A stretch of DNA of 64,000 nucleotides from Chlorella sorokiniana (Eukaryota; Chlorophyta; Trebouxiophyceae; Chlorellales; Chlorellaceae), in assembly GCA_025917655.1 (NCBI GenBank), contig CP084616.1:1240001-1304000 (forward strand). Reading direction: 5' to 3'. Of the stretch, positions 4,772-45,235 are shown piece by piece. The notes under the pieces are model-generated. The model was not told where the DNA came from and did no database searches. It saw only the letters and a list, made by a program, of their open reading frames with translations. The first letter of the stretch is position 1. Each line of letters starts with the position of its first letter. A program made the translations under genes and the position numbers.

Positions 4772-7700
4772 TCACAGCAGCCTGCGATCGCCCTTAGCGG
4801 CCTGCTCGTTGGCCCTCTTGATGGCGGCGTTGATCACTGCCAGCTCGCCCTGAGCGGTGTTCAGCAGTTGCTGCAGAGGCGGGGGGAGCGGGGTCGGTCC
4901 GAGGCCCGCAGGCCTGCAGCAAGCCACGCCTGTGCCACAGCAAGCGGGCAGCAGCCTGCACACCGAACCACACCCATGCGGGTGCCAGCCTGGCCTGGAG
5001 CCCGGCCCCACCTGCTCCAGCTCCTCCCGGGTGGGCCCCTGCTCGGCGTTGACGCCGTCCACCCCCACACGAGTGTAGTCGGGGCCCCCCCGCTGCCGCC
5101 GCCGGCCTCCTCGTCGCTGGTGGTGGCGAAGCTGCCCTCGCTGCCGCCGCCCGACAGCAGCTGGCTCACCAGGTCGCTGCCCGCCTCCGCGCCGGAGGTG
5201 GCGGTGGGACTGCAGCGCAACGCAGCACGGGGTCGCCGTCAGCCCATCAGCGGCTGCCCCCGCTGGCAGCAACGGCAGCCCCCAGGCAGGTCACACAGGC
5301 AGCCCCCTGGACTGGCCCGCCCTTGCTGCGCGGCCCCACCTGGGGGAGGGGGTGGGCTGGGCGGGGGGGGGGGAGGGCAGGGCGGCGCGGCGGGGACGCC
5401 GCTGACAAACATGTCGCAGATGACCAGGTCCTTGGGGGTGGCCAGCGTGACGCACGACCCCTCCCCAGTGCAGTTCACCGTCACCGCCGTCATGGCCGGC
5501 AGGTCGAGGTTCTGGGGCAGATGAAGGGGGAGGGGGGATGAGAGCGTGGGCGGCAGGCAGGCTGCCATGGCGCAGCTTACGCTGCACCTGGCGTGCAGCG
5601 CGGGCATGCGCTGGGGCCTGTGCCCAGCAGGTCAGCGGGGTGGGGCCCATGCGGATGCCCCCGCCGCACACCCCTCCGCCGCCTCACCATGGCGCACACC
5701 GGGTTGTCCAGGCCGTTGTTGGAGGAGGCGTCGCCCACAAACAAGAAGGCTCCCTCCACCGACTCCCCACCGTCAGCTGCACGCTCGTCACGCTGGAGCG
5801 CTCCTGCACGCACAGAGGCGGGGGAGGGTGCGGGCAGGGGCTCAACGGTCGCCGCGGCAGCGGCATGGATGCCCCTGCCAGCCCCAGCCGGGCTGTCGAG
5901 CAGCACGCCAGCCCAGCTCGGGGGCTGCACCACCCTGCAAGGATGGCGTCAGGCGGGCGCCCGCCTGCAGGCGGCGCAGCGGCGGCGCAGGCGCAGCCCC
6001 AGCTCACCGGCAGCACCAGGCTGAAGTAGTTGCCTGAGGGGTCGCGCGCCTCGGCGCACGTGTCGCACAGGCCGTCCACGGCGCGCAGCGCCTGGCTGTA
6101 CAGCACGGAGTTGTCCTGCGTACCGCTCAGGCCCAGCCCCACAAAGTCCTGCAGCGTGTGGCCGCAGTTGGCGGTGGCGGGGTCCTGCTGGGGGCGGTGT
6201 CGGCGGCCTTGGGGGCTCACGCACGGATGCGCCTGCGTGCAGGGGGTGGCCAGGGGGAGGCGGGGTGGTGGACACGCGCGGGCGGGGACCTGCAGCCCCT
6301 GGTGGGGCCTGCAGCAAGCCAGGCGTGTCAAGAAGGAAGCCGCCGCGGCTGGCCGACACGGCAAGCCCCCCACCCCCTCCACAACAACCCGGGCACTCCT
6401 CCCACCTGGGCAGCCAAAGGTCTTGCTGGTGGTGTCGTAGACCTTGGCCACGGTGCAGGCGCCGGTCTGGGGGTCCGCGCACCAGCCCGGCTGGATGGGG
6501 TTGAACTCGGCGATGCACTCGCAGGCGCAGGCGACATCGGAGAAGTTGCCTGGGGGAGGGGCCGGCGGGAGGGAGAGGGAGGAGGGTGGACAGAAGGAGG
6601 TACGCAATTAGCCGCAGGGGCAGGCCATCGCGTGGACAGGCGGCGCAAGCTGAGCGGCCATCATGTCGGGCTCGGCAGCGCTGCAGGGTCCAGCCGTGGC
6701 CCAGCGTGCGACAGCAGGCTGGCCCCCTCCCCCCCGCTCACCGTTGACGCACCGCACCGCCTGGCAGTACTCGCCAGAGGGGAACCACATGTCAGTGGGG
6801 GCGCAGCCCTTGGCCTGGCGCTGCTGGCGGTACTGCGTGGCCGACACAGGGTCCTTCATCCAGTCGATGACCTGCGGGCCGGGGATCAGGGAAGGGGAGG
6901 CAGGCGTGGGTGGGTGGGTGTGGTTAGCAGCGGGAGGAGCGGGGGCGGGACTGACGAGAAGCGAGGCTGCGCAGCCAACAGCTGCCCGCCAGCATCTGCC
7001 AGCAGGCCGCAAGATGGGGGCAGCCTGGGCCGCGGGCGCACCTCGCTCATGGTGGCAAACCACACATTCTCGTGGCCCAGGGCGTACTGGATGAACTGGT
7101 TCATCTGGGCTGCGGGGTTCAGGGGTGGAGTCGCGCACGCAGGCTGTTGGGGCGGGCACAGATCAAGAGGCTGCACAAGCACAAGAAGCCGTGGCCGAAA
7201 GTCTGGCCTGGAGGGGGCGGTCGGAAAGCAGCCGGCCCAGCCCTCACCATTGCGGGCGGAGTCCATGAGCCAGGCCGCATGGATGTAGACGCCGACGGGG
7301 AGCGGTTGCTGCGGCACGGGGGCGGCGGCCCTCCCGTGAGCAGCCAGGCCAACCCGCACACGGCTGCGGCCCCAGCCCCACTGCCCAGCCTTGCCCCGGG
7401 CCCCGCACCAGCCTCGACCCCCCCGGCTCTGCCGCGCCGCCGCCCTCACCCGCCATAGGAGCGGTCGAACTCGCGCTTGTAGGCCTCGTAGATGTCCCCC
7501 TGGGGGTCCATGTTGGTCAGCACCACGCCGTTGTCGTCCTGCACATCCCACATGGGGAACTCCCACAGCCCCTTGTGCGTCTCGTTGACGGAGCAGGGCC
7601 CTGCAGGCGGGGAGTGTGTATGCGTGTGTCAAGGGGGGTAGATGGAAGAGCTCCGCGGAGCACCGCCACGGCGAGTCAGCGGGGGCAGGCGGGGGCACAA

Positions 7701-9331
7701 AGGGGAGGGCTGTCCTCGGCAAGCAAGTCAACACGGCGAACAGCCTTCGGCAGGTGCCCCTCGGCAGGCCGCCGCCGGCCTCACCGGTGCCCAGGTCGCA
7801 GCGCTGGGGAAGGCCGTAGTCCATGGTGTAGGGCCACAGGCGGTCATCTTCGGCGGGGGAGGTGGCGGTGGGGAAGGGCTCGGGGATGGAAGAATCGTAC
7901 AAGAAGCCTGCGCTCAAGGGGAGGGGACGGCCAGCGGTATGGTGGGAACACGGCCAGCGGCCCTTTCTTCACGCTGCCGCGGAGCGCCGCCATCGGCGGA
8001 GGCAGCTGGGGAGAGGCGGGAGGCGGCCGCGCGGCCCACCGTTCTGCTGCAGGACGGTGCGCTGCTCGGGGCTGTGGATGAGGAAGGGCGCGCGGAAGCC
8101 CTGCAGAGGGAGTGCAGCCAGGGGCAGCGCTCGGCTCGACCATCCGCGCTTGCCAGCGCAAGCCACCCAGCAGATGGAGCAAGCTGACTCAGCAGTGATG
8201 CCCTGCCTGCCACCCTGCTCACCCGGATCTTCTCCAGCGGCACGTGCGCAGTCTGGTTGAGCCACAGCTTCATGCCCACAATCTGGAAGAGGTCTGCAGG
8301 GTGTAGGAGAGGTGGGACACATGTCAGCATGTCGGCGCGGTTTCCGCCCCCTCTTGGTCCCCACGGGAGGGCCCCTCCTGCCGGCTCTGTCGGCTGGCTC
8401 ACGACGCCCTTGGCGGCAGGCGTGCACCCACCCGGGTCTGCCACGTGGTAGAGGGTGTGGGAGGCGATTTCGTGGTTCTTCTGGTAAACGTCCTGCACCA
8501 GGTGGTAGTCGGTGTAGTTCATGGACACAAACCAGCTGCGGGAAGGGGGTGGGGGCAGGCAGGGTGCATGGTTTGTGGGGCAAGGAGGGGTTGCCCCCGG
8601 CCAGCAGCACCGCGAGCGACGGTGAAGGCAGGGAGGAGAGTCGTGCCGCAAGGTGCGGGGGCCAGCCGTCTTCGCAGGCAAGGCTGCCGCAGCGTCGCAC
8701 GTGGCGGGGATTTCGCAGCCCTGCGGGTTGTAATGCTTGCTGGTGATGCCCACGATGACGGGGGCGGTGGTGACGGTGATAGCGTCGTCATTGGTCTGGA
8801 GGGGGGGGATGTTTCAGGGTACCGCAAAAATCAAAAAGCCAGTGGTCCCGTGAATGGGGAGTTGCAGTTGCCGGCCTCCTGCAGGCCACACTGCAACCCC
8901 AGCTTCTCGGCTGTGCTGCCCCGCTGCTTCCAGGAAGCCACGCGCTTGTGGCATGTACCAGCGGCAGCGGTGCTCACCAGCACTACAAACTGGGGGTGTC
9001 TGCCGGGGCAAGGCCACCGGGAATGTCGTGGGAGGCGCAGTGGCAGTTGGGGGCCTTGGTGCACGCTTTGGGGCAGTTGTAGCCTGGCGCCTGCAGAGGT
9101 GGACAGGTGGCGGCAGCCACAGGGCGGATGGCTCGAGGCCACCCAGCACGGGCTCGTGCCCCGCTACTGTTGACCCACGTCGTTTATTCTGAACAGCGCC
9201 CTACAGGTGGACCCCCGCAAAAGGCTGCTCACCTTTACAGGCTCTTGCGCCATGACGCAGGCGCTGCCAAGAAGCAGCACAGCCGCAAGGGCGGCGGCAT
9301 ACGCAGCGCGCTGCATGTCTGGAGACTGCAT
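4772..9331 (-). CDS. chitin deacetylase-like polysaccharide deacetylase (CDA1), secreted
   Basis: The gene has about 15 exons, with ATG at 9329-9331 and TGA at 4772-4774. The protein starts with a signal peptide (about 27 residues, AALAAVLLLGSACVMA), then a Cys-rich stretch (APGYNCPKACTKAPNCHCAS). The CE4/NodB domain follows, metazoan-type: LTNDDAITV (motif 1, both Asp present), HEIASHTLYHV (metal-binding H-x3-H), GFRAPFLIHS (motif 3), LWPYTMDYGLP, GLWEFPMWDVQ and GVYIHAAWL (motif 5 His). It would remove acetyl groups from GlcNAc in chitin at the cell surface. After VIDWMKDP come a Cys-rich module (VACACECIAEFN...CTVAKVYD) and a C-terminal region (HTLQDFVGLGLS, AMTAVTVNCTGEGSCVTLAT, a Pro-rich linker, NAAIKRANEQAAKGDRRLL) that I do not recognise and that CDA2 lacks. 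An apparent missing G near 8992-8996 (+ strand) creates a stop in exon 2 and is probably a sequence error. The gene is divergent from CDA2. Confidence 0.85.
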
Positions 9332-10191
9332 CGCATCAGTGAATGAAAATTAGATTGCAGCAGTGCAAGGGTTCTGCCGGCCGCCGGGACAGTGCGCGCA
9401 ACCACCTTTCAACCGCAGTCGGGTGACGAAGGCCGGCCGCACTGAAAACCCAGTTGATTGATTACGTATACAAGGCAATGTCCGTCTTTTGAGATCCGAC
9501 CTTGCAAGCACTCGAGGGCTGAGTGGGTTGTGCGCGAAGCCGTCTCCGAGAGCGGGCCCTGTTACCAGCCCTGAACTAGCATGTACTGTCGCTGCCGACA
9601 AGTTAAACAATAACGAGGGCGGTAATCACACTTACGGAGGATGAGGCGTGTGGGATGCCAAAAGAAAGGACTTGTCCAACGGCCACTGTGGCAACAGACG
9701 CAACGCGGGCTCGAGCGCGGCCAATGCGCTGTGTGTTAGTTTATCGTGAAAGCATTCCGGTGGTGTGAAACGACCTGTTGGGCATTGCAGGCTGCTAGCT
9801 AGCTGCCGCCGAGACCCCGGCAACCCCCGAACGGTGAGCTCTCCTATCCATTGCGGCAATGGTTGCCAAGCTGCCAGACAATCCTCATAGCGCCAGCGCG
9901 ATGTCCGGCCACCGCTCTTCGTTTTGACAACCGTCCGAGGCGCGAAAAGGCCGGGTCCTGTCATGGGCCCTTACAACTCTCGGCTTGCATGCCGTGCTAC
10001 ATAATCATCGTACAGACGCGGTTGACTCGGTACCCAGCGCAGCGACCCATCGCCCAGGCCGCACCGGGCCAGCTTACCGGCGGTGCTGCAACCGCCAAAA
10101 TGCCGCCAGCTGGTTCACTGCCAGCAGCTGGGGCAGGTTGGGCTTAGCCATATGAAGCCCCAATCCCCCGTCCTTCCTGTAACTTGCAGAC
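9332..10191. promoter_or_regulatory. shared upstream region of the divergent CDA1/CDA2 pair
   Basis: These 860 bp lie between the ATGs of two divergently transcribed chitin deacetylase genes, so both promoters must be here. It is less GC-rich than the flanking exons. The open frames are short and do not resemble known proteins. I see no clear TATA box or named operator. Confidence 0.5.
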
Positions 10192-13100
10192 ATGCGGGCC
10201 TCCAATATCTTGGCATGCGCCACGCTTGCCCTCTTGCTGGGCGTGGCAGCTGCTCAGACGGCAGCCCCAAAGTACTGTGAGTTATTCGGTTTTGCCCATT
10301 GCTGGCGCACGGTTGAACACTGGCACTGATGCTGCCAAGCCCTTGGGCCGCCGCAGCTGCCGCCAGTCAGCAGTGGTGCTCGGTCAGGGGCGCTCACTGC
10401 GATACCCAACATGGAACCTTTCCGCCACCTTCCGTCCCCCCTCCCCCTGCAGCCTGCCCCGCCACGTGCCAGGCCAGCCTGGGCTGCCAGTGCGCCACCA
10501 CTACGCCCCCGGCAGCCTGGCCAACGGCGACGTGCCCCAGTTCATCGTGCTGACCAATGACGACGCCATCACCGTGGTCTCCCAGCCCATCATCCTCAAC
10601 ATCACCGAGAGGCACAGGAACAAGAACGGGTGCAAGATGCCGGCCACCTGGTTTGTCTCCGTGCAGTACACCGACCCCAACCTGGTCAAGCAGGTCTTTG
10701 TGCGCGGCCACGGTGAGCCTGCCGTGGTGAAGCCCATGGGGAGCCCGTGGTGGTGCAGCCGGGCAGCTGCCTGCCCGGGATTCAAGCAGGGAGCGGCAGG
10801 CGCCAGCGCCCGGGGCCCAGGCGAAGGCCCCAACTGTCCTGACGCTGCCCACACGCACCATTTGCACCCACCCCCACTCCCCTGCCTGCCCGCTTTGCAG
10901 AGATTGCCACACACACCATGACGCACGTGGCCAGCCCCAACGCCTCTGAGATCGTGGGTGCGCGCGACTGGCTGAACAAGACTGCAGGCATCCCCAAGGA
11001 AAAGGTGGTGGGCTTCCGCGCCCCCTACCTCATGTTCGACCCGCAGCAGCAGCGAGATCCTCCAAGAGAACGGTGAGTGGGGGTCGGTGCGGGGGGGAGG
11101 GAGGAGGACTGGCTAGGAAAGCTGCGCCTGCATCCGCAACCCAGGCACCCCCTGCCCCGCTTTGCACCCAGTCCTAACACACACCTGTCCCCTGTCGCGC
11201 AGGCTTCTCATTTGACTCCTCCATCAGCGAGCAGTACCCCACCGCCACCTCCCCCTCTGCCGGCCAGCGCCTGTGGCCCTACACCATGGACTACGGCCTG
11301 CCCCAGAACTGCGCCATCAGGTAGTTGACCGAGGCGCACCCCTTGCACCGCGGCGGTGCTGCGCCGGTTGCAGGACTGTGCATCCGGCCCCCCCATTAGC
11401 CCGCCAGCAGCACCGCGAGCACTCCGTGCCCGCCCTGACCCCCGCCTGTGCCCGCTGCACCCCTTGCCGCAGCACCGGCACCTGCTCCGTGGACGAGAGC
11501 CACCCCGGCCTGTGGGAGTTCCCCATGTGGAATGTGCAGGACGCCACCAACGTCACCGTGGCCTCCATGGACCCGCTGGTGGGCTGCTGGCGGGGAGGAA
11601 GGGGGGGGTGGGGGGGCGCTGCTGGCTGTTCGCTGGCAGCAAGAGAGCTTCGCGCTCGGCACGAAGCTGCCCTCGCGCCCCGCTGCCTGGCCCTGCCTGC
11701 TCCTGCGGTGGCAGGCGAGGGCGCTGATCCCGCCCCCGCCGGGCCCCGCACCCGCCTCGCCTGCTCCGTGCTGCAGGGCGACGCCTATGAGCTGTACAAG
11801 CTCCAGTTTGACCAGCGGTACGAGGGCAACCGCGCCCCGCTGGGCATCTTCATCCATGCCGCCTGGATCATCGCCGACCCCAGGTGTGTAGTGGGGGAAG
11901 GGGGGAGAGGAAGGGATCCCTGCCCCCTTTCTATCTGTGCCCGCTGGTCTGCCAACCCCAAGATGCCTGGCAGCCTGCTGGCCTGCCTGCCCGACGCCTC
12001 CCCCGGCGCACCACCACCCCCGCACCGCCGCCGCCCATGCAGCCGCGCCGAGATGGTGAACCGGTTCCTTGAGTACGCGCTGACCAAGGACAACGTCTTC
12101 CTGGTCACAGTCAGCCAGGTGCGGGCGGCTGGCACAAAGCTACCGAGGGCCGCAACCCGCGGCCATGCGGCCGCCATGCGGCGGCGCCCGCCCACCGTTC
12201 TTGCAGCCTCCCACCCATGTTGCCGCCCTCTCCTTTCTTGCAGGTGCTGGACTGGATGAAGAAGCCGGTGCCTGCCTCGGAGTACTCCCCCTCCTGCCCC
12301 AGCCCCCAGGAGCTGATGCAGCTGCTGCCCGAAGGCACCGACCTCTGCATCATGCCCAACCAGGGCTGCGACTACGTGAGCGCCGCGCCGCTCCGCGTTG
12401 CTGTCCGATGGCGGGGGGTGGATGGGATGGGCGCCGCATGCCCCGAGCGTCGCCCCCAGCGTCCCTGCCTCCCTTGACTTGGGCAGGCAGCCCGCCTTTC
12501 CCTCCCTCACCCTAACCCCTGCTGCCGCCGCACCCTTGGTCACCTGCTGGTGCCGCGCGCTTGCCCCCCCCGCAGGGCACCTTTGACTCCGCGGCCTGCA
12601 AGTGCCAGTGCCAGAACGAGAAGATCAACGCCGCGGGGTACTGCCGCGACGCCGAGGGCCGCTGCACGGTGCAGAAGGACTACGACTTTGCGGCCAAGGA
12701 CTACTTCTGCCCCAAGCCGGCCGCCGCCGCCCCCGCCGCCGCCCCCGCCGCCGCCCCCGCCGCGGGCCCCGCCGCCACCCCCGCCACCCCCGCCCAGTCT
12801 GCCGCTCAGCCGGTGACGGTTGAGATGGATGTGGAGGGGGCCACCCCGCCGACTTCACGGAGACGAGGGCGCTGGCGCTGTGCGCGCAGCTGCTGCGCCT
12901 CACCGGGGACCCCACCGCCACCTGCACCGTGGTGTCGGTGCAGGCCACCGCCGGCCGCCGCCTGCTCCAGGTGCGTGCCCGCCCCCTGCCTGCGCACCTC
13001 CAGCATGGTGCCCGCCGCCAGCGTGGACTGACCTCTGGGTGCCTGCGCCTGCCTTCCACCATCACTCCTGGCACCCCCAATCCACCCCACCACCCCGCCC

Positions 13101-14201
13101 TTTGCCCCCTTGAGCTCACCCCTGCTTGCCATCCCGGCTTCTTTCCCCTTCCCACCCCCTGCAGGACAAGGTGCACGTGATCGTGGCCATCTCCACCAGG
13201 AACGCCAATGCCACCGTCGCCGCGCTGCAGACCGACACCGTCTACACCCTGCTCACCCCCGCCGGCATCAACGCCACCCCCGGCACCATCAAGGCCACCC
13301 TGGGCGCACCTGCGGCCCCCGCCCCCGCTGCCGCCCCTACCGACAACGGCTCCAGCGACGGCGGTTCCACCGACGGCGACTCCACCGACGACAGCACCAC
13401 CGACGACGGCGCTCCCGCCGAGGGCGACACGCAGGGCAGCGCCGCCTCGACCGATGACGACAGCAGCGGCAGCTCCAACATCGGCGCCATCGTGGGCGGC
13501 GTGGTTGGCGGCGTGCTCGCCGCCGTGGCCCTTGGCGCCGGCGTCTGGGTGAGGCTGGTGGAGGGCGGGCTGCCGCTCGCTGGGGGCTCGCTCGAGCCGC
13601 GTGTGGCAGCTGGCGGCCGGCAGCGCTTGCGTGTAGCATGGGCACACCCGCCTGGCCCGCCCCCTCTGAACCGCCTCTGAGGCTGCTGTTTTGGCTGCTG
13701 GCTGGGCTCTGCCCTGGCCTGCCCCGCTCCTGTTCACCTTCTTGCTCGCTGCCCCCCCTGCAGTACTGGCGCCGCCGCAAGGCGTCCAGCAAGGCTGACG
13801 CCGCCGTGGAGGCGCGCACCGCGTCCTTCAACCCCACCTTCGCCGGGGTCACGGCCTCGGGTGAGGCGCGGGCGGCTGAGGGCCCCGCCACGCCGCCGCC
13901 GCCGCTGCATCAGGGGGCGGCGAGCCTGGCAGGCGGGCCTGCCTGTCGTGCGGGCCAGGCTCTGCATGCTCACCGACCGCCGCACCCCCTCCACACACAC
14001 ACCCTCCACAACACCCCACACAACACCCCCTCCTCATCCCCCTCACACCATCCCCAGCGCACCAACCCCCCTCCCCGCCCGCCCCCGCCCGTCGCAGTGC
14101 GCTCCACCCGCAGCCCCACCAAGAAGCAGCTGGCGGAGGCGGAGGTGTGCGAGTCGCCGCTGCGCGATTCCATGGCCCGCCTGCCCTCGCAGCAGCAGTA
14201 G
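10192..14201 (+). CDS. chitin deacetylase (CDA2), secreted, type I membrane protein
   Basis: ATG is at 10192-10194 and TAG at 14199-14201. Exons: 10192-10276, 10453-10712, 10901-11072, 11203-11320, 11473-11578, 11777-11883, 12043-12118, 12244-12375, 12576-12970, 13165-13548, 13764-13860, 14098-14201, all GT-AG. A signal peptide (MRASNILACATLALLLGVAA) precedes a metazoan-type CE4 domain: LTNDDAITVV, HEIATHTMTHV, VGFRAPYLMFD, LWPYTMDYGLPQNC, NRAPLGIFIHAAWI, VTVSQVLDWMKKP. Then come a Cys-rich module (AACKCQCQNE...CTVQKDYDF), an Ala/Pro linker, a conserved algal domain (ALALCAQLLRLTGDPTATC), an acidic Ser/Thr/Asp stalk, a membrane span (IGAIVGGVVGGVLAAVALGA) and a basic cytosolic tail (WRRRKASSK...LPSQQQ). 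It is predicted to deacetylate chitin at the plasma membrane or wall. Single-base gaps at 10506-10510 and 12844-12847 and an indel near 11050 break the frame; I treat them as probable errors. Confidence 0.87.
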
Positions 14202-14876
14202 GGCCCCGGCGCCGCCGCACCCACCTACCACGCTGCCCCTGGGCGGCGCCCGGCGCAAGGCGGCACCTGACCGCCGCGCCCCCAACTAATGGCTGTACTG
14301 TTTGCTTGATGCGACTTTGCTCTGGAGCCCTGGATGGGCGTCGCCTTCGGCAGCGCCCGGCCAGAGCTCTTTCAAGGCTGGCTGTTTGGTGGCCGCGACG
14401 CCGGCAGCTGCGACAAGCTGGCCGTGCGAATCGTCCTATTCTTTGTGCCCGGTTGTCCCATTGACAACAGAAATGTCTGCTAGACTCCCTCCTGCCCTGG
14501 TTCTGATGCTGTCGAGGATGCGCACCTGATCTATGTTACATCAACAGCACAGACAAACGACGGCGCAAAAACAGCCCCTATCACAAGGGCTGCAACGGGG
14601 CAGCAGCCTGCTCGAGGGCAGCAGCCCGGTGGGGAAGGCTGGCACAACTGGGCCCAGGAGCGGCAGCTGCTGCTTTGCTTTGTTGGCACAGGCCTGCCGA
14701 GTGCACGAAGGGCTCGGGGCTCCTGCAGCGTGGGCAGCTCAGGGCGGCAGGCCGTCCCTGCGCTGCCGCTTGACACCGGGCGCGGGGGCGCTGCATCCCG
14801 CGACGCCTGGGCCGGCTTCTTGCGCTGCCGATGCGCTGGGCGCGCACTGCCGGGGGAGCGAGGGCTGGCGGCGTCG
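14202..14876. other. convergent 3' intergenic region, CDA2/AP2-A
   Basis: This is the space between the stops of CDA2 (+) and AP2-A (-). A TTACA at 14534-14538 (TGTAA on the minus strand) could serve AP2-A, though it is about 340 nt from the stop. The region is almost identical to 22057-22730. Confidence 0.45.
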
Positions 14877-19443: not shown

Positions 19444-19543
19444 TGGACAAACAAGGCGGCCCACGGTGCCCAGGCAGCAGAAGGCAGGGGTTGGGACTCT
19501 GGCACGCAGTCTGGAGCGGCCCTGGCAATCTCCTTAGTTGCCC

Positions 19544-20277: not shown

Positions 20278-20437
20278 GGGATGGGCGCCCGTGCCCCCAA
20301 GCGTCGCCCCCAGCGTCCCTGCCTCCCTTGACTTGGGCAGGCAGCCCGCCTTTCCCTCCCTCACCCTAACCCCTGCTGCCGTCTCACCCCTTGGTCACCC
20401 GCTCGTGTCGTGCGATTCGCCCCCTATCCCCAGGCAG

Positions 20438-27321: not shown

Positions 27322-27420
27322 TGGACAAACAAGGCCGGCCAAGGGTGCCTAGGCAGAATAAGGCTTGGGGGTACGACTCTGGCAAGCGGCTCTGGCTGAG
27401 GCAATCTGCTTGGCTGCCCT

Positions 27421-29445: not shown

Positions 29446-29701
29446 CTTTGCGGCTGCTGCTGTGGTGCCAACCGGGCAATCGTCCAGCACCACGGAAAGA
29501 GGCAGAGGCAGGCCTGGGAGCCCACTTGGCCGGCGGACCCAGGCGCGAGCACGCCACGCATTTCATGCGCGGCAGTTTGAGCATACGGCACGCTTTGAAC
29601 ATCTTAATATGATGAATTTGCGATTTTGGTCTGACGACACGTTTCCTTGCATGCTACCAAACCTGGCGGGGTCGCCACTTTGGCTCGTTTCTTAAGGAGC
29701 T

Positions 29702-31008: not shown

Positions 31009-31040
<32 letters not shown>

Positions 31041-32397: not shown

Positions 32398-35300
32398 TCA
32401 CTTGGCAAACGGCGAATCGCCACGCCGCCTCCGCACCGGGGACGGGCTGGCGTCGCTGCGTGGCGAGTAGCTCTCATCCGTCAAGGGCTCTGCAGGGACG
32501 AGCGAGGGAGGCAGGCAGGGGTGAGGAGCGGCGGAACCACCGCGCCAACATGCGTGGCTGTCGAACGGAGGCAGCGCCCGAGGCAGCCGAGCACGCGCGC
32601 GCGCCAGGCCACCCCCCAGCCCTCACCCGACTGCGGCACGTGCATCTGCCCGCCCGCGTAGCGCGCGCTGCCCGGCTGGATGGCGATCTCCACCTCGCTG
32701 CCCGTGGGGTCGCTGCTGTAGTACGACTTGACCGACCCCAGCGGGTGGCCGCCGCCCACGCCCGCCGCGGCGGCCGCTGCCGCAGCGGCGCGCTCGTCGC
32801 GCGCTTGTCGCGGCCCGTCCAGCGCCGCAGCCAGTAGGCGAAGATGAAGATGATGGAACCACCCACCTGCGGTATTGTGGGGGCGCGCGCATGGCTCGAA
32901 GTCGCGTCAGCTGGTGCTGCTTGCAGGGCAAGGATGCGGGAGGCAGCTGCCAGGCCAGCCGCTGCGCGCCCGCACGCCTCCCAATCCCCCTCCCCCAGCA
33001 CACATGTGCAGCGCCCCACCTGGAACATGACGATGAAACACAGCGTGACGAACATGATCTGCAGGAAGTAGGTGTAGCCGTAGTGTATGGTGCACACCAC
33101 GTTGGCGTCGTAGCCGTTGGTGGTGTTGGAGGGCAGGGGCAGCCAGATGCGGCCGTACTCCTGCGGCAGAACCCGGGGTGGGTGGGTCGGTGGGGAGGGG
33201 TTGTTTTGACAAGAGCAGGGGGAAAGGGGCGCAAGCGCGTCGGCGTGCACTTGAGCACTGGAAACACAGCAGGGTGGGGTGCGCCGCAGGTGAGGTGGTT
33301 GGGCGGGGCGGGGCGGGACCCACCTCGAGCGTGGCGGACGAGTTGATGCCCATGGACTGCTGCAGCCAGTCGGAGAACTTGGGCATGGACTGGTCGATGT
33401 TGGTGAAGAGCTCGGTGGCGTTGGCCAGCACCGTGCAGCTCGCGCCGCGCACGCAGTTGGACTGCGGTGGAGAAGGGTGAAGGGGTGCGGGGGTGGGGGT
33501 GAGCAGAAGCGCACAGCTAGCCGCAGGCACGTCCCCTGCAGAGGTGCGCTCCACGGCGGAGCGATGGGTGGCAATCCTTGAAGCAGCACGCCCCGCCCCC
33601 GCTGCCTGCTCGCCGCGCCCCCTACTTTTCCGGTGCTGCCCCGCAGCCCACCTGCGAGTCGCCGGTGACGAGCATGGGGTAGTTCTGGGGAAAGCCCTGC
33701 AGGCCGTGGAATGGGTAGAGCGCCTCGCCGCGCTGCAGGATGGTCACCGCCGTCTGCATCAGGTCGGCCATGATGAGCGCCTTGTCGCCCTCCTGCGCCT
33801 GGCTCTTCACCGCGTTCACCGCCTGCTCGCTCTCCGTCAGCGCGCACGTCTCCCAGGTGGCGTTGGAGAAGACGGTGGCGGCGATGACGAAGAACACGTT
33901 GGTGGACACCCAGGCGATGAGGAGGTAGGAGGAGAAGGCCTGGGGGGGGGGGGGGGGCGGGGGCAAGGTTTGGCAGCAGAAGGGGCAGGGGGAAGCGCTC
34001 CCAGCCCGCTGGGACGATGTCACAGAGCACGTCGAAGCCGCAAGCCAGCAGGTGTGGGGTGCCCGCGCTGCCCAGCGTGCCGCAGGGCAGCACCCGGGCC
34101 CGCCACCCACCCGCATCTTCTGCTCCTTCTTCTGGTTGTAGGCCGCGATCTTCTTGGCGTCGGTGAGGTGGCTCTGCACCTTGCCCATGGCCTCCCAGAA
34201 GGCCTTGGACGTCTTGCTGGGCCGCACCTGGGGGCATCAAGGGGAGCGGCAGGCAGAGCGTCGGGGAGGCAGCGGGGGGGGACTCCTCACAAGGGAGCAG
34301 CTGGACACAGCGGCTGCATGTGCAGGGCTGCTGGGCGATGCGGTTTTCGAGCTGGACGGGGGCAGCGAGGTGAGCGCGGAGCGCGGCGCGGCGCGGGGGC
34401 GCACCTGGTACGCGAGGGCCTTGAGGCCATCTTGCGCGCGTCGTGGTCGGCGTGCTTGGTGTCCAGGTTCTTGGTGCCCCAGGAGATGTCGTCGGCGTTG
34501 CAGAAGGCGTACATCTGCGGTACAGGTGCGCGTGGGTGGGTGAGGGGGACAGCAGGCCGTGGGAGCAGCAGCCAAGGGGAGCGACCAAGATCCGCAGTGG
34601 CAGAGGGGCCACACACACTTGGTGAGCCAGCTGTCTTTAGGAACCACCAACAGCGGCACCCAGGCCCCCACTACCGTACCATGCCCCCCCACACACACAC
34701 CAACCCACCTGGAGCATGTTGAAGAAGACGGGCTGCATGACCCAGTACTGGAAGCCGGCGCCGATGATGGCCAGCAGCTCGCCGTGCAGCAGGGCGGTGA
34801 GGAGGATGCCGCCGATGGCGGACAGCAGGATGGCCACCAGCAGGCCCAGCTGCTGGGTGGAGATGCCGATGAAGGAGTAGTCCGAGTTGGTGATGAGGAA
34901 GCTGAGGGGATGGGGGGGGGGGGGGAAAAGGGGAAGATGAGGTTGGTTGCGGGGAGACTAACGGAGGCCGAGGCGGGGGGCAGCAGGCGGAGGGGAAGCG
35001 GCGGTAAAACAAGCCCATAGCTGGCGTGGCCGGCAGAGCTAGGCTCTGTTGAAAGATGGAGCCCAGCGGGCACCGCTGTCAAAGAGGCGGCGCTCAGCGC
35101 CACCCTGCAGCCAGCCCCGCCGCACCTGATGGTCACTCCTGTGAAGACGAGCATGTAGAGGCAGAAGTAGATGGCACAGAAGGAGTGCACCTTCTCCACC
35201 GCCTCCGGCTTGTTCTTCATGTTGATGATGAGCTGCACGATGATGAGGAAGAGGTAGAGCACGCCTACCACGCGCCCAATCTCCACCAGCCACGTGGCGC

Positions 35301-38300
35301 CGTCAAACGCCACCTTGAGCAGCATGGTGAGCAGCACGAAGAAGATGCCGATGCCAAACCTGCGCCGCAGCGGCAGGACGCAGGGGGAGGACAGGCAGTC
35401 GGTTGCAGGACAGGCCGGGCACCGAGCAGCCGGAGCCGGATGTCAAGCATACCGCCCAGGTCGGCTCCCTCTCGGCAGCAGCCCGCGCCGACGGCGGCAG
35501 CCACCCAGGCAGCGCGGCGGAGGCGCACCATGTGCCCACTATGAGGTTGACCAGGAGGTAGATGAACTCGAAGGTGAGGAGGAGTTTGCGGGCCACGCTG
35601 TGCGAGCTCTCCGTCCAGATGCGCCCCATGTTGCCCAGCGCGTACAGCATGGCGAAGAAGGTGCCGTTGAGCCAGCGCCGCCTCTGCTTCATCAGCCCCG
35701 TCAGCTTGGTCACCGCGTCGGCCTCCGCCACCGCCTCCTTGATGTACTCCAGGCGGTACTTGGCGCCCTGGGAAGAAGGGGGTGTGTGTGTGGGGGGGCA
35801 TGGGCGTGAGAAGCGGCTGCGGGGCAGGGCAGGCCGCAGCGGCGCCGCTGACATGCGGCCAGCGCAGCCCGCCCCGCCGACCGGCCGGGAGGCGGGCGGG
35901 CCGCTGCTGGCCGCAACCCTGGCCCCACATTGCAGCTGCCCGCTGCGCGCACACCTTCTTGGCCACCACTTCAATGCACAGGATGCGGTCCTCCGCCAGG
36001 AACATGTTGGCCTCAAACGCGTTCAGCTCCGCCTGGCTGTACAGGCCGTAAAAGTACTTGCGCAGCGGCTCGCCCTGCAGCGCAGGAGCAAAGCCAGCGA
36101 GAGGAGGGTGAGGAAACTGGCGTGGCACGCTAACACAGCAGGGCGGGGGGGAGAAGGGGTGAGTGCGATGGCGGCCAGCAGGAACAGCGGTCGGCCCCCT
36201 CGGAACGGCCGCTCACCTCCACAGCGGCCCAGCGGAAGGCGCAGAAGGCGCCGGGCAGCACGGTGAGGAAGCCGCAGATCGACTCCACCGGCTTCTGCAT
36301 CAGGTGCGACACCTTCCACTCGCAAAACTGCACCGCGGTGAGGAAGGTGCGGTACGGGCGTTGCACCGTCAACTCCCCAGTCAGCGCCCGATGGTGGGGT
36401 ACCGCTGGAAGTGGGTCGCCACCGCCTTGAGCGCCGACGGCAGCGGCTTGGTGCCTGCAGGGGCAGGAGGGAGGGGAGGGCGGGGGGGGCATGCAGGTCA
36501 GCCGGGTGCAGCATGCAACCCTGAACCGCTGCCTATTAAACAACCGCCAGGCAGCTCGCACGCCGGCAGTGCTGCTGGGTTGCTACGGGCCACTGCGGCT
36601 ACCGACAGACGCATGTGCGAGGGACGCCTTGCGCGAACCCCTCAACAACCCCACAGCACAGCCCCTGCCCCACCACCCACCCGCGTCGAACAGCACGCAG
36701 TACTCGGGCTGGAGCAGGTAGCAGAAGGCGTCGAAGTACCAGCAGTGCGAGTCCAGCTTGCCCTTGTTCTTGCCCTTGGTGGCAAACATGATCTGCAGCG
36801 GCGGGTAGTTGTCCAGGCCCGCGTACTTCTTGAACCTGCGGGGAAGGCGCCAGGCGGCGGCGAGCGGCGGCGGGGGTGAGGCGCAGCGCAGCCGCACAGC
36901 GAGTACTGTGAGACTGCCGGGTCGTGCTGCTGGCAGGCTGCACAAGGCTGGGCCGCGTGCACTGCTGCGAGCGGCCGCCCGCCCACGCACCGCGCGGTGT
37001 ACTCAAACAGGTGCAGCGTGGTTGGTGCGCCCAGCACGCTGTTCTGCAGCACCACGGGGAGAAGAAGCCGTGCACGGTGGAGGCGGCCAGCACCGACTCG
37101 TTGGCGTTGCCGATGCCGTCCTGCACGATGCACACCGCCACCTCGGTCCAGTCCACGCCGCGCCGACCGTCCTTGGCCACAAACTGGTCGTACATCACCT
37201 CCAGGTTCTGCAGACGTCAGCAGTGCCCAGGAAGCCGTCAGGGCAAAGGAGAGGAGGGTGGGAAAGCCCCACCCCAGCAACACACATAGGGGCGGAGCGG
37301 CCGGGTGGGCTGCTCGGAAAAACACCAGCCAGGGCAAGGGGTTGGAGGCGGTGGGCAGCAATGCAGCTGCAGTCGCGCATGCAGGCATATCGACGTTTCG
37401 GCACGCGGTGAAGCCCACCCCCTCCGCGTGGGCAGTCCCCGCGGCCCCCGTGCCAGGCCGCCACGCACAGCCCCCGCGGCGCTCACGTCGCAGATGCCCA
37501 CGAGCGTCTTGCGCAGCTCGTCGTAGTCCTCGTTGTAGAGGGTGACGCAGATGAAGAGCTTGATCTTGCGGTCCATGCGCTGCAGGCGCAGCGTGTAGCC
37601 GTCCACGCCAAAGTCGCGGGCGTCCTGCGGCGGCAGGCACCCAGGCAGCTCGAGGCAGGCAGGGGAGCGCGTGCGCCAGGGGTAGCGCGGCTGGCAGCGC
37701 GCTGCTGCCCTGCTGGATTGCGGGCTGCACGTGCTGCGTCTTTCCAAGGCAGGGGCAACCACCTCCCATCATGCACAGCAGCACTGGCGTGCGCCCCTCA
37801 CGACACACATACACGCGCACCTCGGTGACGACGGGCGTGTAGCGGCAGTGCGTGAACTCCATGGGGTCGGTGACCTGCACATCCTCCCACTCGTCGCGGT
37901 ACACCTCGTTGGGCACTGGGTAGTAGACCTGTATGCGTAGAGGGGGGCAGCAGAACAGCGCAGTGAGCAACGGCAGGCGCAGGGGCAGGGATCGCAGCGC
38001 AGATGCCAAGTCTGCATGGGGCCAGGCTGCCGGGTGTGAGCCGGGTGCTGTCCCAGCGCCCGCTGAAAGGGGCAGGCCCCCGCCGCACGAGGGCTGAGGG
38101 CCAGCCATGCGCCGCGGGGCACACACGCTGTCACCATCACAGCAGCAGCTGCCATTCAATGTTGTGCAGCAGTAACCCTCCGACTGCAATCGCTTTGGTG
38201 CAGGTGCCAAGCCAGCAGCGTTTACCCAGCCTGTACCAGCCGGCGGCGCCCGCCACCAGCCTGCGCGAGCTGCCGCCGCCGCGCGTGCACCCACCTGTGT

Positions 38301-38955
38301 GTCCGCGCGCAGCAGCTTGAAGTCGTTGTAGTACTCGCGCACGTTGCGCTGCAGGCTGCCCGCCACCTGGTGCTGCCCAGTCATGTACTTCTCGTATGTG
38401 GACGGCATCCAGTCGGCGTCCGACCCCAGCTGGCTCTTTAGCCCCTGCAGCCGCTTGTCCAGCTCCCCATAATAGTCCTCAATCGGCTTCTCCACCGTGA
38501 TGTCATCATTGATCACGAAGATCTCCTGCGGGAGGGGGGCCAGTGCGGCAAGGCGTCAGGGGCATGTGCTGCGCGGGCGAGCTGCGCTTGCAGCGTCAGC
38601 AAGCAGCCAACCACCCCCGCCGCCGTCAGCCGTCTGGAGGCTGCCCCTCCCTCCGCCCCGCGCACCTCCATCTCAGCATCTGCGGAGCAACAATGGGAGG
38701 GCAGTATGAGCAAGCGTGTCCAGAAGGGGTGCACGCAAAAGGGAGCGGGGCAAGCAGGCAGGCAGACAGGGGGTGAGCGGACTGGCGGCGCTCCGCAGCG
38801 ACGCTGATCGCTGATTAAACAGCGATGAGGCGTTTCAGGCGCTGCAGAGGGCCTGAATCACCCCGCCCCGCCCTGTTGCGTCTGCAGCGCGGTGCACCTT
38901 TCAAGGGCTCCACATACTCCGTTCCCTTAAGTTCGCCGGCTGGCAGTCCCGCCAT
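32398..38955 (-). CDS. chitin synthase, family 2 glycosyltransferase, multi-pass membrane protein
   Basis: ATG is at 38953-38955 (MAGLPAGELKGTEYVEPLK); exon 1 joins DAEME and then EIFVINDDITVEKPIEDYYG. TGA is at 32398-32400 after DSPFAK. The gene has about 16-18 exons. Chitin synthase signatures appear in order: MDRKIKLFICVTLYNEDYDE, VAVCIVQDGIGNANESVLAA, KGKNKGKLDSHCWYFDAFCY, the acceptor-site motif LAEDRIL (EDR at 35985-35993), QRRRWLNGTFFA (35672-35686, the processive-synthase motif) and YAFCNADDISWGTK (34470-34493, a fungal-type signature). Hydrophobic spans follow (LLTFEFIYLLVNLIVGTW, AILLSAIGGILLTALLHG, YFLQIMFVTLCFIVMFQ, SIIFIFAYWL). It uses UDP-GlcNAc to make and extrude chitin at the plasma membrane. 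One base is missing at 37056-37059, where FFLPVVLQNSVLG breaks. The order of motifs, with DDISWGTK between membrane spans, fits division-1-like enzymes. The tail is polar. Confidence 0.9.
33942..33957 (-). repeat. 16-nt G run (+ strand) in a chitin synthase intron
   Basis: An uninterrupted run of 16 G lies in the intron after the exon ending KKEQKMR; a 14-G run is at 34912-34925 in another intron. On the transcribed strand they form C-rich polypyrimidine tracts near splice acceptors. Confidence 0.8.
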
Positions 38956-39798: not shown

Positions 39799-41907
39799 TT
39801 AGGACAGCGCCACAGCCGCAGCAGCCAGGGCCAGCATGGTCACCAACAGGCTAGCATAGCTGGTCACGGCAGAGCTGGGAGCGGGGGTGGGCTCAGGGAT
39901 GGGGGACGGGGAAGGGGCAGGGACGGGCGCAGGCACCGGCTGTGCCATGGGCTCTGGTGTGGGGGCAGGGGCCTCCGTGGGCTCTGCAGCCTCAGGGGCG
40001 GCGCGGCCTCGGGTGCAGGAGCAGGGGCGTCGGGAACTATGGGCTCCGGTGGCGGCGGCGGCGGAGAAGCAACCGGGGAGGAGACTCCACAGGCGGGGGG
40101 CTGGGAGGGGACGGGGGCAGAGGCGGGGGCTGCACAGGGGGAGGCAAGACACAACACTCGCACTTCAGCACAAGCCAGCCGCGTTTTACTCGGACACATG
40201 GAACGACAGCGATAGCTGGTGACAGGCACGTGGCAGGCGTGCACCTGGGGGCGCAGGTGGCGGGGGCATGCCCGTCACAATCTCGGGGTTGATGCAGGAC
40301 TCGTCGCTGCATGGAGCAGGCATGGGGGCCCTTGCAAGCCGCAACGGATGATGAATGCAAAGCGCAACAACGGGCTTGAAAAGGCGCAGGGCAATCGACT
40401 GCAAAACCTACGCGGGGGAGCTTGACTTGGGTGCCCGGGGACAGCACGCCGCCAGCAGAGAGCTCGGGGTTGATGGCGGCCAAGTCAGCGGCACTGGTCT
40501 GGAACTGCAAGCGCAACAGCAGGGCAGGCAAGAACGAGTTACTCGAACGAGTTACTCGCCAGAATGGCAAGAGGACACCTGCAGGGGGTCATAAAGAAGT
40601 TCCAAGCAAGCACGACACCAATGCTCCAGCTGCCCAGGGCAACCACAAGCGTGTCAGGCAATGCTGCTGGCGCACCATGGCGGCAATGCTGGCGACGGTG
40701 TCGCCCTCCACAACGAGGTAGGCACGGCAGTTGCTGGGCTTTGAAACTTGCACACCTACACGGATAGTTGAGCACGGCAGCACTGAGCATGCGCAAGGAT
40801 GAGGTGCCCTCGCAGCCACTATTGCAGCGATACAGTGGAGGAAGGGATGTTCCCAAGCGCAGAGCATCTCCTGCCCACCGGCTCCGCAGTTGTCGGGGAA
40901 TGGCGGCAGCTGCACGCGCATGCCAGGCTGCAGCACAGTGGTGCTGTCCACGCCCAGCCCCGTGTTCTGGGCCTGGAGGTCGGCCAGCGGGATGGAGAAG
41001 GCGGTGGCGATGACCGACAGCGAGTCGCCCGTCTCGGCGATGTAGACGCGGCAGGCGGCGGTGTTGCCAGGCTCGGGGCAGACGGAGGGGTCCCAGGGCG
41101 GCAGCTTGACGAAGGAGTTGGGAGCCAGGGCGGCAGGGTTGACGGAGGGGTTGGCTGCCACAATGTCCTGGCGTGGGACGCCAAAATAACCGCCGATTGT
41201 GTCCAGTGTGTCGCCCATCTGAACAGTGTAGTACTGGCAGTCCTGAATGCCGCCTGCGGAAGCAGGGGGTGACACTGACGGCAGGTCAGCTGAAAATGGT
41301 GGGTGCACCTACCCAACAAGCAAGCATGGCAAAGCCTCCCATGTTTATCTGATCAGAATAATTGAAAAATCAGACGTAGGGTGCTCACCTGCAGACTGTA
41401 CATTCAGGCAGGCAGACACCCAGCCCGGCAGGCAGATTCTTTGGCCCGCTTGCAGAAAGTCGCCAGGAGTGTAGCCGGTGACCAGCAGGTCGCAATTTTG
41501 CAGCGCGCTCTCCAGCTCAGCTGCAGCATGACACATATGGCATGGGATCAGCACGCGAGGAGGATGGGATCAACCATTACACAGGCAGTACCGGCCCAAA
41601 GCAGCATGAAGGGGACAGGTGGCAGCGGCAGGCAGGCGGGCGGCAGGCGGGCAGGAGCGGCACCGCCCGCTCACCAACTGTCAGGCGATACTCGCTGGCA
41701 ATGCTGCCAACAGTATCGCCGGCGGCGACTACGTAAGTCTGGCAGACGGCTGCGAGAGAAGAGGGCAGGATCCGATCTAAGTTGCAATGGTTGCAAGCCT
41801 CTGTCGCAACGCCCAAAGCAGCATCCCATGCTCTCACCCTGAGCCTGCACCGACACTGCCGCACATCCGAGTAGTGCAGCGAGCAGCAGAGGCGCCACGC
41901 GCGGCAT
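39799..41907 (-). CDS. secreted LysM-repeat protein 1 with hydrophobic C-terminal tail
   Basis: ATG is at 41905-41907; about eight exons. The signal peptide is MPRVAPLLLAALLGCAAVSV. Four LysM modules follow: CQTYVVAAGDTVGSIASEY (split by an intron, finished by NCDLLVTGYTPGDFLQAGQR), CQYYTVQMGDTLDTIGGYFG, CRVYIAETGDSLSVIATAFS and CRAYLVVEGDTVASIAAMV with NPELSAGGVLSPGTQVKLP. LysM modules bind N-acetylglucosamine polymers such as chitin. A Pro/Ala/Glu-rich stalk leads to SSAVTSYASLLVTMLALAAA and a stop, as expected of a GPI-anchor signal or a membrane anchor. A base is missing in the stalk (39995-39998 on the plus strand), which otherwise joins PAPEAAPPP to EAAEPTEAPAP. It is in tandem with the chitin synthase and the second LysM gene, all on the minus strand, so a wall or surface chitin-binding role is inferred. 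Confidence 0.87.
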
Positions 41908-42719: not shown

Positions 42720-45235
42720 TTACAGCAGCGCCGCGCCCACCAGCAGCGCCAGCAACGCGCATAGCAGGCTGCCGACGGCGTTGGGGCGGCAGCGCTGGGA
42801 GGTGTGGCAGTGGGGACAGGGGCAGGGGTGGGGGCACCTCCTCCTCCACGGGGGCGGGGGCGGGGCGGGGGCGGGGGCGGGGGTCTCTGTTGGCTCGGCA
42901 GCAGGGGCCTCGACAGGCGCCTCTGCGTCTGGGGCGGGCGCCGCAGGGGTGGCGGGGGAGGGGAGGGGGCGGCTCCCAGCCCGTTGTAGTCAAAACTGTC
43001 TGGCACGGTGGTCTTGCCGGGCACGCCCACCAGGTTGCCCTTGCCCACGCAGCTCAGCGGGAAGGGCGGCAGGTTGACGTACGTGCCGGGCCTGCAAGGA
43101 ACACACGCAGGGGGCATGCGGCATGAGCGGGGCCGCGTGGGGTCCGCGTGACGGCACTGTCGGTTGGTGAGCAGGAGCATGGGTGTGGCATGCCCTCCAG
43201 GCGGCAGGTGAGAACACCCTCCCCTGCGTCACCCCGGCACTCACTGCAGCACAGTCACGTTCTCCAGGGCGGGGTTGACGTCCTGAATGGCGGTAAAGGA
43301 GGTGGAGTACCTCTCCGCCAGCAGCGCCAGCGACTCGCCCTCGCCCAGCTGCGCCACGCGGCACCTGTCCGGAGCAGGGAAAGGGGGTCTGGGTTAGTGA
43401 AGGGGGGCTGGGGCCTTGGAGCAGCGCGCTTGTGCGGCTGCAGCGGCACACCGGCCCGGCTCGCACAAGGACAGCAGAGGGTGCGGTCAAGCGCAGGCCG
43501 CGAACAAGCGCCGCGGGGCAGCGCTGCTCACGAGACGGTGTCGGCAGGCAGCTGAGCGGGGATGCCCTCGGGCGGGCAGCTCGTTCCACTTGGGCAGCTT
43601 GAGCTGAAGCACGGGGTTCACAAGAGAGGGCGGGCCAGGTGGGGGCCAAATGACGAGGCGGTTGCTGTGGCAGTTGCACAAGGCGACCGATGACTTGGAC
43701 TTGCCAACGCCTCAACCCGCCTGGCCCACAACCCCACCACCTGTAACCCCCTGCTTCCTCACCCTGAAGTTGGGCTGGAGCGGGTCTGAGGCGTTGATGC
43801 TGTTGAGCTCCACCGTCTCGTCCACGCTCACCAAAAACTTCTGGGCAATGACAGCCAGCGAGTCGCCTGGCTGCACGATGTACACGCGGCACATCTCCAT
43901 GTCGTTGTCGTTGAAGTCGCGGCACAGCTCCTGGTTCCTGCGCGGTCAACAAGTCCAGGGTAGCAGCAGGCAGTGACGCAGGGGCGGCGGCAGGGATGCG
44001 GGAGCCTCAAGGCGGGATGCGGGCGGTCACAAGCCTCGAAACGTCAACCAGGAGGCGCGCGGCCAGTGAAATGACAGGCGCCAGGGCTGTGGTAGGCGGC
44101 AAGGAGCAGCTGCGCAGCCATCGTGGAGGAGTGGGCAACAAGGCGGGCAGCGGGCGACGCCTCACCAGCCCGGGATGCGCACATACTGGCCGGCGAAGGG
44201 CAGCTTCCAGCCGTCATCCAGGTAGTCTGCCGAACAGGGACACAGATCAAAAGTGTTCAACAGGGCAGGCAGTTGGAAGGGTAGAGGGGCCCCAGGACTG
44301 CGCACGCATCGATGCCCAGCTTGACCAAATGTTTGAAATCAAGTCAAAATGGCGCTGCAAGGGTTGAGCCTCTCGCAGAAGTGCAGTGCAAAGCTACAAA
44401 CCAGAGTTGAGCTCCACCAGCTGGTCCTCAGTCATGTTGAACAGCTTGGCCACGCTGGCAACAGTGTCGCCCGCCTGCACCTCGTACACCTGGCACCAGG
44501 GCCGGTCGGGGTCTGCAGGGCACGGGGGCGGGACGTGGATGGCAGGGTTGGGCTGGGCTGCCGGCTTGCCTTGCTGCTGTGGAGGCATGGGCAGGAAACG
44601 CGGTGCGGGGCGCGTCCACGGCCGCGGCATGCGCTGCCTAGAGCAAGCTGGGGGCCCATTGTGCATCCAGGCAAGACCGCTCACCCGTCTCCAGCACGTG
44701 CTGGCAGATGTCCTCGATGTAGCCGGGCAGGCAGATCTCGAGATCGATCTGCAGCGGGTCCAGCTTGGCCCCGCAGTCAGTGGCGGCCTTGGTCAGCGCG
44801 TCTGCAATTGGAGCAAACAAGGGGCACCAGCATGCATGACTGGTTGAGCACACACCCCACGCCTGGGTTGCTTTGGGTGGCCAGGCCCTCCTGCCCAGAC
44901 AAGCGGCAGCCGCAGGATGTGAGCAAGCGCAGCAGAGTCACACCCTGGGTGACATTCAGCTCCTGGGCAATCTGAAAGAGGGTGTCGCCCGCCTTGATGG
45001 TGTACTTGGGGCAGAAGCCATACTCTGTATCAAGCAGGGGTGGGTGGAGGCGCATTTGGTCATCGTCACCATGCCAGGCAGCGCGGCGGCTGGCAGTTGA
45101 GCCGCCTGGCGCAGGGACAGAGCCCTGGGGTTTGCAACGCCCCCGCACACAGCTCACCATCGGCAATTTTGTTCGCAGCAGCCGCGTGAAGGCCAAGCAG
45201 CAGGCCAAGCAGCAGCAAAGGCGTTCTCCCTTCAT
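42720..45235 (-). CDS. secreted LysM-repeat protein 2 with hydrophobic C-terminal tail
   Basis: The ATG at 45233-45235 gives MKGER and then needs one extra base to enter a signal-peptide frame (LLLLGLLLGLHAAAANKIAD); I take this as another missing base. Four LysM modules follow: CPKYTIKAGDTLFQIAQELN, WCQVYEVQAGDTVASVAKLF, CRVYIVQPGDSLAVIAQKFL and CRVAQLGEGESLALLAERYS. Each is completed on a downstream exon (for example LQIDLEICLPGY, DDGWKLPFAGQYVRIPGW, PGTYVNLPPFPLSCVG). A Pro-rich stalk ends in NAVGSLLCALLALLVGAALL and a TAA at 42720-42722, again a GPI-type or membrane-anchor tail. Architecture parallels LysM protein 1, although the modules are not close copies. It probably binds chitin or chito-oligosaccharide at the cell surface; a receptor role is not supported because no kinase domain is present. 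Confidence 0.85.

Follow-up and report, generated by a model that had tools for sequence, protein, structure and literature searches.

Chitin synthase (CHS) genes of the CV class, carried by chloroviruses and some fungi, are clustered with UNGD and lie near a polysaccharide deacetylase gene, whereas the CHSs of Chlorella fall in division 1 (PMC5122149). Glucosamine-rich, chitin-like material has been reported from the wall of Chlorella vulgaris (PMC12142970), and chitin in the wall of chlorovirus hosts is discussed in reviews (PMC5408694, PMC7019647). The Chlorella wall is relevant to chlorovirus entry, symbiosis, and biomass processing. In C. variabilis, Blanc et al. in 2010 reportedly found two CHSs and many deacetylases. 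Here we analyzed a window of 64,000 nucleotides from Chlorella sorokiniana (C11:1240001-1304000, contig CP084616.1; genome of 38.8 Mb in 15 contigs), in which five wall-type genes lie between 4.7 and 45.2 kb, namely a CHS gene (CHS1), two chitin deacetylase (CDA) genes (CDA1 and CDA2), and two genes for multi-LysM proteins (LysM-A and LysM-B; Table 1).

We read this locus as a loose gene neighbourhood that serves a wall layer of the chitin/chitosan type in a Chlorella-like green alga, and put the probability of this reading, including the mechanism proposed for it, at about 0.6. CHS1 would polymerise N-acetylglucosamine (GlcNAc) at the plasma membrane and extrude chitin, from which a membrane-anchored CDA2 and a secreted CDA1 would strip acetyl groups outside the cell, leaving a presumed wall chitosan. 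LysM-A and LysM-B, tethered to the surface through their C-terminal tails, may then bind chains that contain GlcNAc and so keep the layer in place or organise it. The three units, CHS1, the LysM pair, and a CDA pair grown by local duplication, would have come together here by chance or through history. As in the CV-class neighbourhood, a CHS gene lies near a deacetylase gene, but the window CHS is of the division-1 type rather than the CV class, which belongs to division 2 (an assignment made from Pfam scores). The window also differs in having LysM genes beside the CHS, insect-type CDAs, nuclear intron-rich genes, and a 40 kb extent with unrelated genes in between. The CHSs described from Chlorella and Picochlorum (division 1 in PMC5122149; also PMC4471660) are of the same family and probably from the same algal group, with two copies in the genome studied here.

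The chitin synthase and the deacetylase pair

CHS1 matched PF01644 (Chitin_synth_1) at 117.5 bits against a cut-off of 25, compared with 59.5 bits for Chitin_synth_2, and its closest solved structure was PDB 7xs6, "Chitin synthase 1" (E 1.9e-81), which we take to be a yeast enzyme. A first-pass annotation of this DNA had described a chitin synthase with EDR, QRRRW, and DDISWGTK motifs; all three are present (EDR as read in the gene model) and, together with the family and structure matches, bear that description out. By its sequence, we therefore assign CHS1 as a putative division-1-type chitin synthase.

The best solved-structure matches of CDA1 were insect-type CDAs: 5zns, "chitin deacetylase" (E 1.7e-33, residues 9-286 of 294), presumably the silkworm enzyme, and 5z34 (E 2.9e-23 over nearly the whole domain). 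In Pfam, CDA2 scored 26.2 bits and CDA1 21 bits with PF01522 (cut-off 23.1), and NCBIfam matches were all far under their cut-offs (NodB at 37.9 of 240 bits for CDA2). The catalytic D-D, H-x3-H, and R-x-P motifs were invariant in an alignment of six CDAs picked for completeness, CDA1 and CDA2 among them, and the R-x-P motif of CDA2 lies ahead of the frame break in that gene. The two proteins share 56% identity. Signal-peptide-like starts, called by a hydropathy scan rather than SignalP, were seen in CDA1 (ATG 9331 or 9316, minus strand) and CDA2 (ATG 10192, plus strand), and the C-terminus of CDA2, judged by eye, carries a hydrophobic, transmembrane-like segment followed by a basic tail. Many insect CDAs carry LDL-receptor or chitin-binding domains, whereas a Pfam scan found neither in CDA1 or CDA2; in further contrast to the insect enzymes, two CDA paralogue models of this genome carry LysM, and CDA2 has its membrane-type tail. 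Two CE4 deacetylases with signal peptides had been proposed here, of which the deacetylase identity and the secretion-type N-termini stand, while the family label is in doubt. We use the name insect-type deacetylase rather than CE4 because a review places insect CDAs outside the CAZy classes, as too dissimilar to the other CDA families (PMC6415152).

A viral derivation or horizontal acquisition of the island, of the kind suggested for other chitin genes of Chlorella, would fit the co-location of CHS and deacetylase genes in the CV-class neighbourhood, and a review repeats the hypothesis of a chlorovirus source for chlorella chitin metabolism (PMC7019647). We consider such an origin very improbable given that the window CHS is mainly Chitin_synth_1, that Chlorella CHSs are placed in division 1 and the CV class in division 2 (PMC5122149), and that the gene models are intron-rich. 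Scans of the viral_contigs collection, also weighed in setting this origin aside, gave 3, 1, and 229 pattern stretches for CHS, LysM-A, and the six-CDA alignment, respectively, with no relative confirmed; this is weak evidence, as a scan with a single protein finds close relatives only and the chlorovirus CHS genes known from the literature were likewise not returned. In the genome_contigs collection, the CDA alignment found 6 loci from 36 pattern stretches, all in bacterial metagenome-assembled genomes (three of them Treponema) and with a best identity of 32% among full-length matches, too few loci for a claim of origin.

LysM proteins and LysM-bearing deacetylases

Four PF01476 stretches were found in each of LysM-A and LysM-B, and the hydropathy scan called signal-peptide-like starts in both (ATG 41907 and ATG 45235, respectively, minus strand). 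The first-pass annotation had also given these proteins hydrophobic C-terminal tails; the tails exist but, barring small introns in between, they are out of frame with the Pro-rich exon before them. An AlphaFold model of one LysM-A exon reached a mean pLDDT (predicted confidence score) of 38. The two genes do not appear to be a recent tandem duplicate, given that their overall mutual identity is 30% and exon matches to a paralogue on contig C1 are 34-53% identical.

A profile built from the eight LysM domains of the window best matched, among 28 distinct PDB sequences, 4b8v, "Extracellular protein 6" (Ecp6; 82.9 bits), which we assume to be a chitin-binding and chitin-sequestering fungal effector, while plant LysM receptors and CEBiP matched much more weakly (26.6-28.8 bits). 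Pfam LYK4/5 LysM models also match the two proteins. These likenesses would suit proteins that sense, or act as decoys for, chitin or chito-oligosaccharides of chytrids, aphelids, bacteria, or viruses rather than retaining a wall layer, and LysM genes are among the candidate receptors noted in infected Graesiella emersonii (PMC8657485). However, no kinase domain was matched by Pfam in the two LysM models, which are partial, and the fusion of Cys-flanked LysM to CDAs in the same genome points to a polymer of the alga's own wall, which leaves the sensor or decoy role rather unlikely in our view. Ecp6 and the plant CEBiP/LysM receptors are likewise multi-LysM proteins, but the window proteins combine four LysM with a Pro-rich stretch and a hydrophobic tail, and are encoded next to a chitin synthase.

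Two such CDA-LysM fusions were noted, both in home-made gene models. The first, CDA3-LysM (C11:1195251-1198000), lies ~44 kb upstream of the window; its CDA part scored 46.8 bits with PF01522, and its tail, which is not LysM by Pfam, aligned with the eight-LysM window profile in hhalign at 97% probability. The second, at C1:2297-2298.6k, has a CDA followed by LysM (27.7 bits); its CDA part reached 15 bits in Pfam and was matched at 4e-20 in the genome search with CDA1. Because the Cys-flanked LysM modules are fused to CDAs at these two loci, we infer that they act on the polymer of the deacetylases, and the fusions are the best evidence that LysM proteins and deacetylases may share a polymer. 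A prediction from these fusions is that the deacetylase substrate is also the ligand of the LysM modules. In the titles and abstracts searched, we found neither a CHS-LysM-CDA neighbourhood nor a CDA-LysM fusion in green algae, which is not proof of absence, nor any description of conserved synteny at this locus.

In a FastTree phylogeny of 16 of the 18 CDAs (two were dropped for poor models, several were partial, and the alignment was trimmed by hand), CDA1 and CDA2 were sisters (support 0.998) and CDA3-LysM came next (0.876), with several other nodes weak. Local duplication is the probable source of the CDAs in this part of C11, as far as the tree can tell. A shared gene history thus holds within the clade of CDA1, CDA2, and CDA3-LysM, but not across the locus, where CHS, CDA, and LysM represent families with no relation to one another. 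With CDA1 and CDA2 being sister duplicates and the two LysM genes paralogous, the five genes count as three independent units.

Genome-wide distribution and the chance of linkage

Genome searches were performed exon by exon, and split exons can be missed, so the counts that follow are lower bounds. Two CHS loci were found, that of the window and a second (CHS2) at C9:452.8-458.5k, which had no CDA or LysM neighbour in the 30 kb of C9:440-470k, nor any on C9 400-500k in the genome-wide tables. The CDA search gave 45 exon matches at E up to 0.1, the window included, which grouped into ~18 genes at 14 loci plus a truncated copy (several matches being weak), with ~16 of the 18 genes outside the window. 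At least three LysM loci exist besides the window pair, in addition to the LysM fused to CDAs. A GH19 match was found at one place (C4:1836k), and GH46 at two neighbouring places on C3 (2614k and 2617k), with a below-cut-off match on C10; the GH46 and GH19 matches fit turnover of chitosan and chitin. The locus is therefore not the whole pathway, as it lacks CHS2, the majority of the CDA genes, and the GH46 and GH19 matches. The first-pass annotation had proposed a physically linked pathway; the gene identities and the logic of making, deacetylating, and binding a polymer survive, but with CHS2, most CDAs, and the other LysM genes among those scattered, that wording was too strong.

Several of the loci elsewhere have features of their own. 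Two of three exon pairs of the C3 GH46 chitosanase matches had identical scores, indicative of a likely recent duplication. A tandem array of ~4 CDA genes at C6:2083-2103k is larger than the window pair, and no CHS or LysM match is listed on C6 in the genome-wide tables. The catalytic residues are not kept in every CDA paralogue: one C6 copy differs, as does the paralogue at C2:2317k, which has HDN for HDD and lacks the histidines of the second motif and is, by these substitutions, possibly inactive.

The proximity of the three families was assessed by simulation (2 CHS, 4-7 LysM, and 14-18 CDA units placed uniformly; four settings of 2 million trials each; 7 of the 15 contigs treated as equally long). 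A CHS, a LysM, and a CDA fell within a 33 kb span with P 2.2e-4 to 5.0e-4, a CHS and a LysM within 7 kb in 0.28%, and a CHS and a CDA within 26.5 kb in 3.8%. A cruder simulation with fixed distances gave a joint P of 1e-4 to 9e-4 and a CHS-LysM P of 0.4-2.9%. These values overstate the surprise, because the categories were picked after the finding had been seen. The genes are real and so is the neighbourhood, which is moderately unlikely, while its reading as a linked pathway is over-strong.

One account, which overlaps with the reading preferred here, holds that three families met by accident and were enlarged by tandem duplication, the location being meaningless. With 14 CDA loci, a CDA near a CHS is no rare event (the 3.8% above), only three independent units need to have met, and the same families are scattered elsewhere; yet the joint P and the CHS-LysM value are low for pure chance, even post hoc, and we hold this account to be a realistic possibility, though less likely than not. 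Alternatively, co-regulation or co-inheritance may hold together a selected cluster of CHS1 with the LysM and CDA pairs, to which CDA3-LysM and a barwin gene perhaps belong. CHS1, LysM-A, and LysM-B are contiguous and on the same strand with gaps of 0.8 kb, CDA1 and CDA2 are divergent with a 0.86 kb interval between their ATGs that is a possible shared promoter, the minimum-span P is small, and CDA3-LysM (C11:1195-1198k) and the barwin gene (C11:1229.7-1231.2k) lie upstream. On the other hand, the P is post hoc and assumes uniform placement, CHS-CDA closeness alone is a 3.8% event, the island is interrupted by four unrelated genes, a truncated CDA2 copy, and a recent duplication, CHS2 is without such neighbours, and upstream k-mers were not above random. 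Selection on the cluster is in our judgement unlikely. A shared promoter motif for the five genes was rejected: 18 7-mers were common to at least four of the five upstream regions, fewer than the 41.7 averaged by random segments, and none at 8, 9, or 10 bases, although the comparison with random window DNA, which has a higher G+C content, makes this a crude test.

A still more elaborate picture, which we regard as decidedly unlikely, is a maintained chitosan-wall cluster of ~90 kb on C11, comprising the CDA3-LysM fusion, the barwin gene, CDA1 and CDA2 on a shared promoter, CHS1, and the two surface LysM proteins, with Cys-flanked LysM modules serving on deacetylases or as lone anchors of the same polymer. 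Such a cluster would parallel, in a nuclear genome and with a division-1 enzyme, the chlorovirus CHS-deacetylase neighbourhood. The genome has three barwin matches; the one here, ~14 kb from CDA1, is a merged gene model with a signal-peptide-like start and a barwin domain (C11:1229673-1231204).

Several points weigh against our preferred reading of a loose wall-gene neighbourhood. The gene models come from a home-made gene finder, CDA1 is under the PF01522 cut-off, and the lack of a CAZy class for insect CDAs makes the CE4 label open. The exon-wise search found no GH18 in the genome, whereas GH18 is reported across green algae (PMC4014436), so the exon-wise counts may be insensitive. Some of CHS1, CDA2, and the two LysM genes could be pseudogenes, given their frame breaks (at the tails in the LysM genes), and the tight CHS1-LysM spacing (0.28%) hints at more than an accidental meeting. 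Three points stand whichever reading is right: the adjacency of CHS1 to the two LysM genes, the models of fused CDA and LysM, and the recent duplication described below. The locus offers a testable gene set, made up of one of the genome's two chitin synthases, a divergent pair of deacetylases, and the two LysM surface proteins. Conserved linkage would make it an unusual cluster of wall genes for a green alga; without such conservation, it would counsel caution in reading pathways from neighbourhoods.

Gene layout, frame breaks and tandem duplication

The window has 67% G+C. From left to right, its genes run RBM8-like, CDA1 (-), CDA2 (+), AP2-like (-), the truncated CDA2 copy (+), a second AP2-like gene (-), RPS11 (-), SirB1-like (+), CHS1 (-), LysM-A (-), LysM-B (-), and an ALKBH-type 2OG-Fe(II) oxygenase (-). 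Beyond the island lie an NO66-like gene, a TLC-type membrane protein, a multicopper oxidase, and FEN1; the RBM8, NO66, and TLC labels were read off the sequence. The island of a synthase, two deacetylases, and two LysM genes in ~40 kb, as first annotated, is confirmed by the gene models and the Pfam and PDB matches, as is its interruption by RPS11 and a SirB1-like gene, to which the two AP2-like genes and the truncated CDA2 copy can be added.

Table 1. Features of the locus and related loci elsewhere in the genome (window positions, unless a contig is given).
Feature	Position	Strand	Basis
CDA1, secreted-type insect-like chitin deacetylase, Cys-rich C-terminal region	4697..9331	-	gene model, 5zns, hydropathy
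Gap between divergent ATGs of CDA1 and CDA2, 0.86 kb	9332..10191	.	start codons
CDA2, deacetylase with Cys-rich region, hydrophobic segment, basic tail; one frame break	10192..14201	+	gene model, Pfam, hydropathy
Tandem duplication copy 1 (CDA2 3' part and AP2-like gene)	12420..19514	.	blastn, 95.7% over 7156 columns
AP2-domain-like gene, interrupts island	14581..19728	-	PF00847, 27.8 bits, below cut-off 33.3
Tandem duplication copy 2	20274..27395	.	blastn
Truncated CDA2 copy without catalytic domain	20274..22056	+	gene model, blastn
Second AP2-like gene, copy of the first by duplication	22435..27829	-	gene model, blastn
RPS11 (S17 family), unrelated to chitin	27930..29584	-	PF00366, 104.8 bits
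SirB1/transglutaminase-core-like gene, unrelated to chitin	30083..31770	+	PF13369, 25.6 bits, cut-off 23.5
CHS1, putative division-1 chitin synthase, two catalytic-domain frame breaks	32398..38955	-	PF01644, PDB 7xs6
LysM-A, signal-peptide-like start, four Cys-flanked LysM, Pro-rich stretch, hydrophobic tail in other frame	39799..41907	-	gene model, PF01476, hydropathy
LysM-B, signal-peptide-like start, four Cys-flanked LysM, Pro-rich stretch, hydrophobic tail in other frame	42720..45235	-	gene model, PF01476, hydropathy
CDA loci	C1 (three), C2, C3, C4, C6 (four genes, one locus), C7, C9 (three), C11 (1196k; window pair; 1633k)		exon-wise search
LysM loci outside the window	C1:5136-5138k (paralogue, six exon matches); C5:2171k (one match)		exon-wise search
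LysM-fasciclin gene	C4:1318-1324k

The frame of CHS1 shifts twice in the catalytic domain, near 37050 and 36385, as located by tblastn with the second chitin synthase as the query, and that of CDA2 breaks near 11050, just past the R-x-P motif. FEN1, a housekeeping gene of the same window, also loses its frame, near 61730, in a stretch that is intact in the best-matching PDB flap endonuclease. Given FEN1 is broken too, we read the breaks in CHS1, CDA2, and the LysM tails as probably assembly errors rather than gene death, and an island of pseudogenes was not our first choice for the same reason. The 7 kb tandem duplication, with its 95.7% identity, is a much younger event; it splits the island and has moved the CDA pair and CHS1 further apart. 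Just beyond the island, the multicopper oxidase gene (54983-59999; PF07731, PF07732) encodes a protein with a hydrophobic N-terminus.

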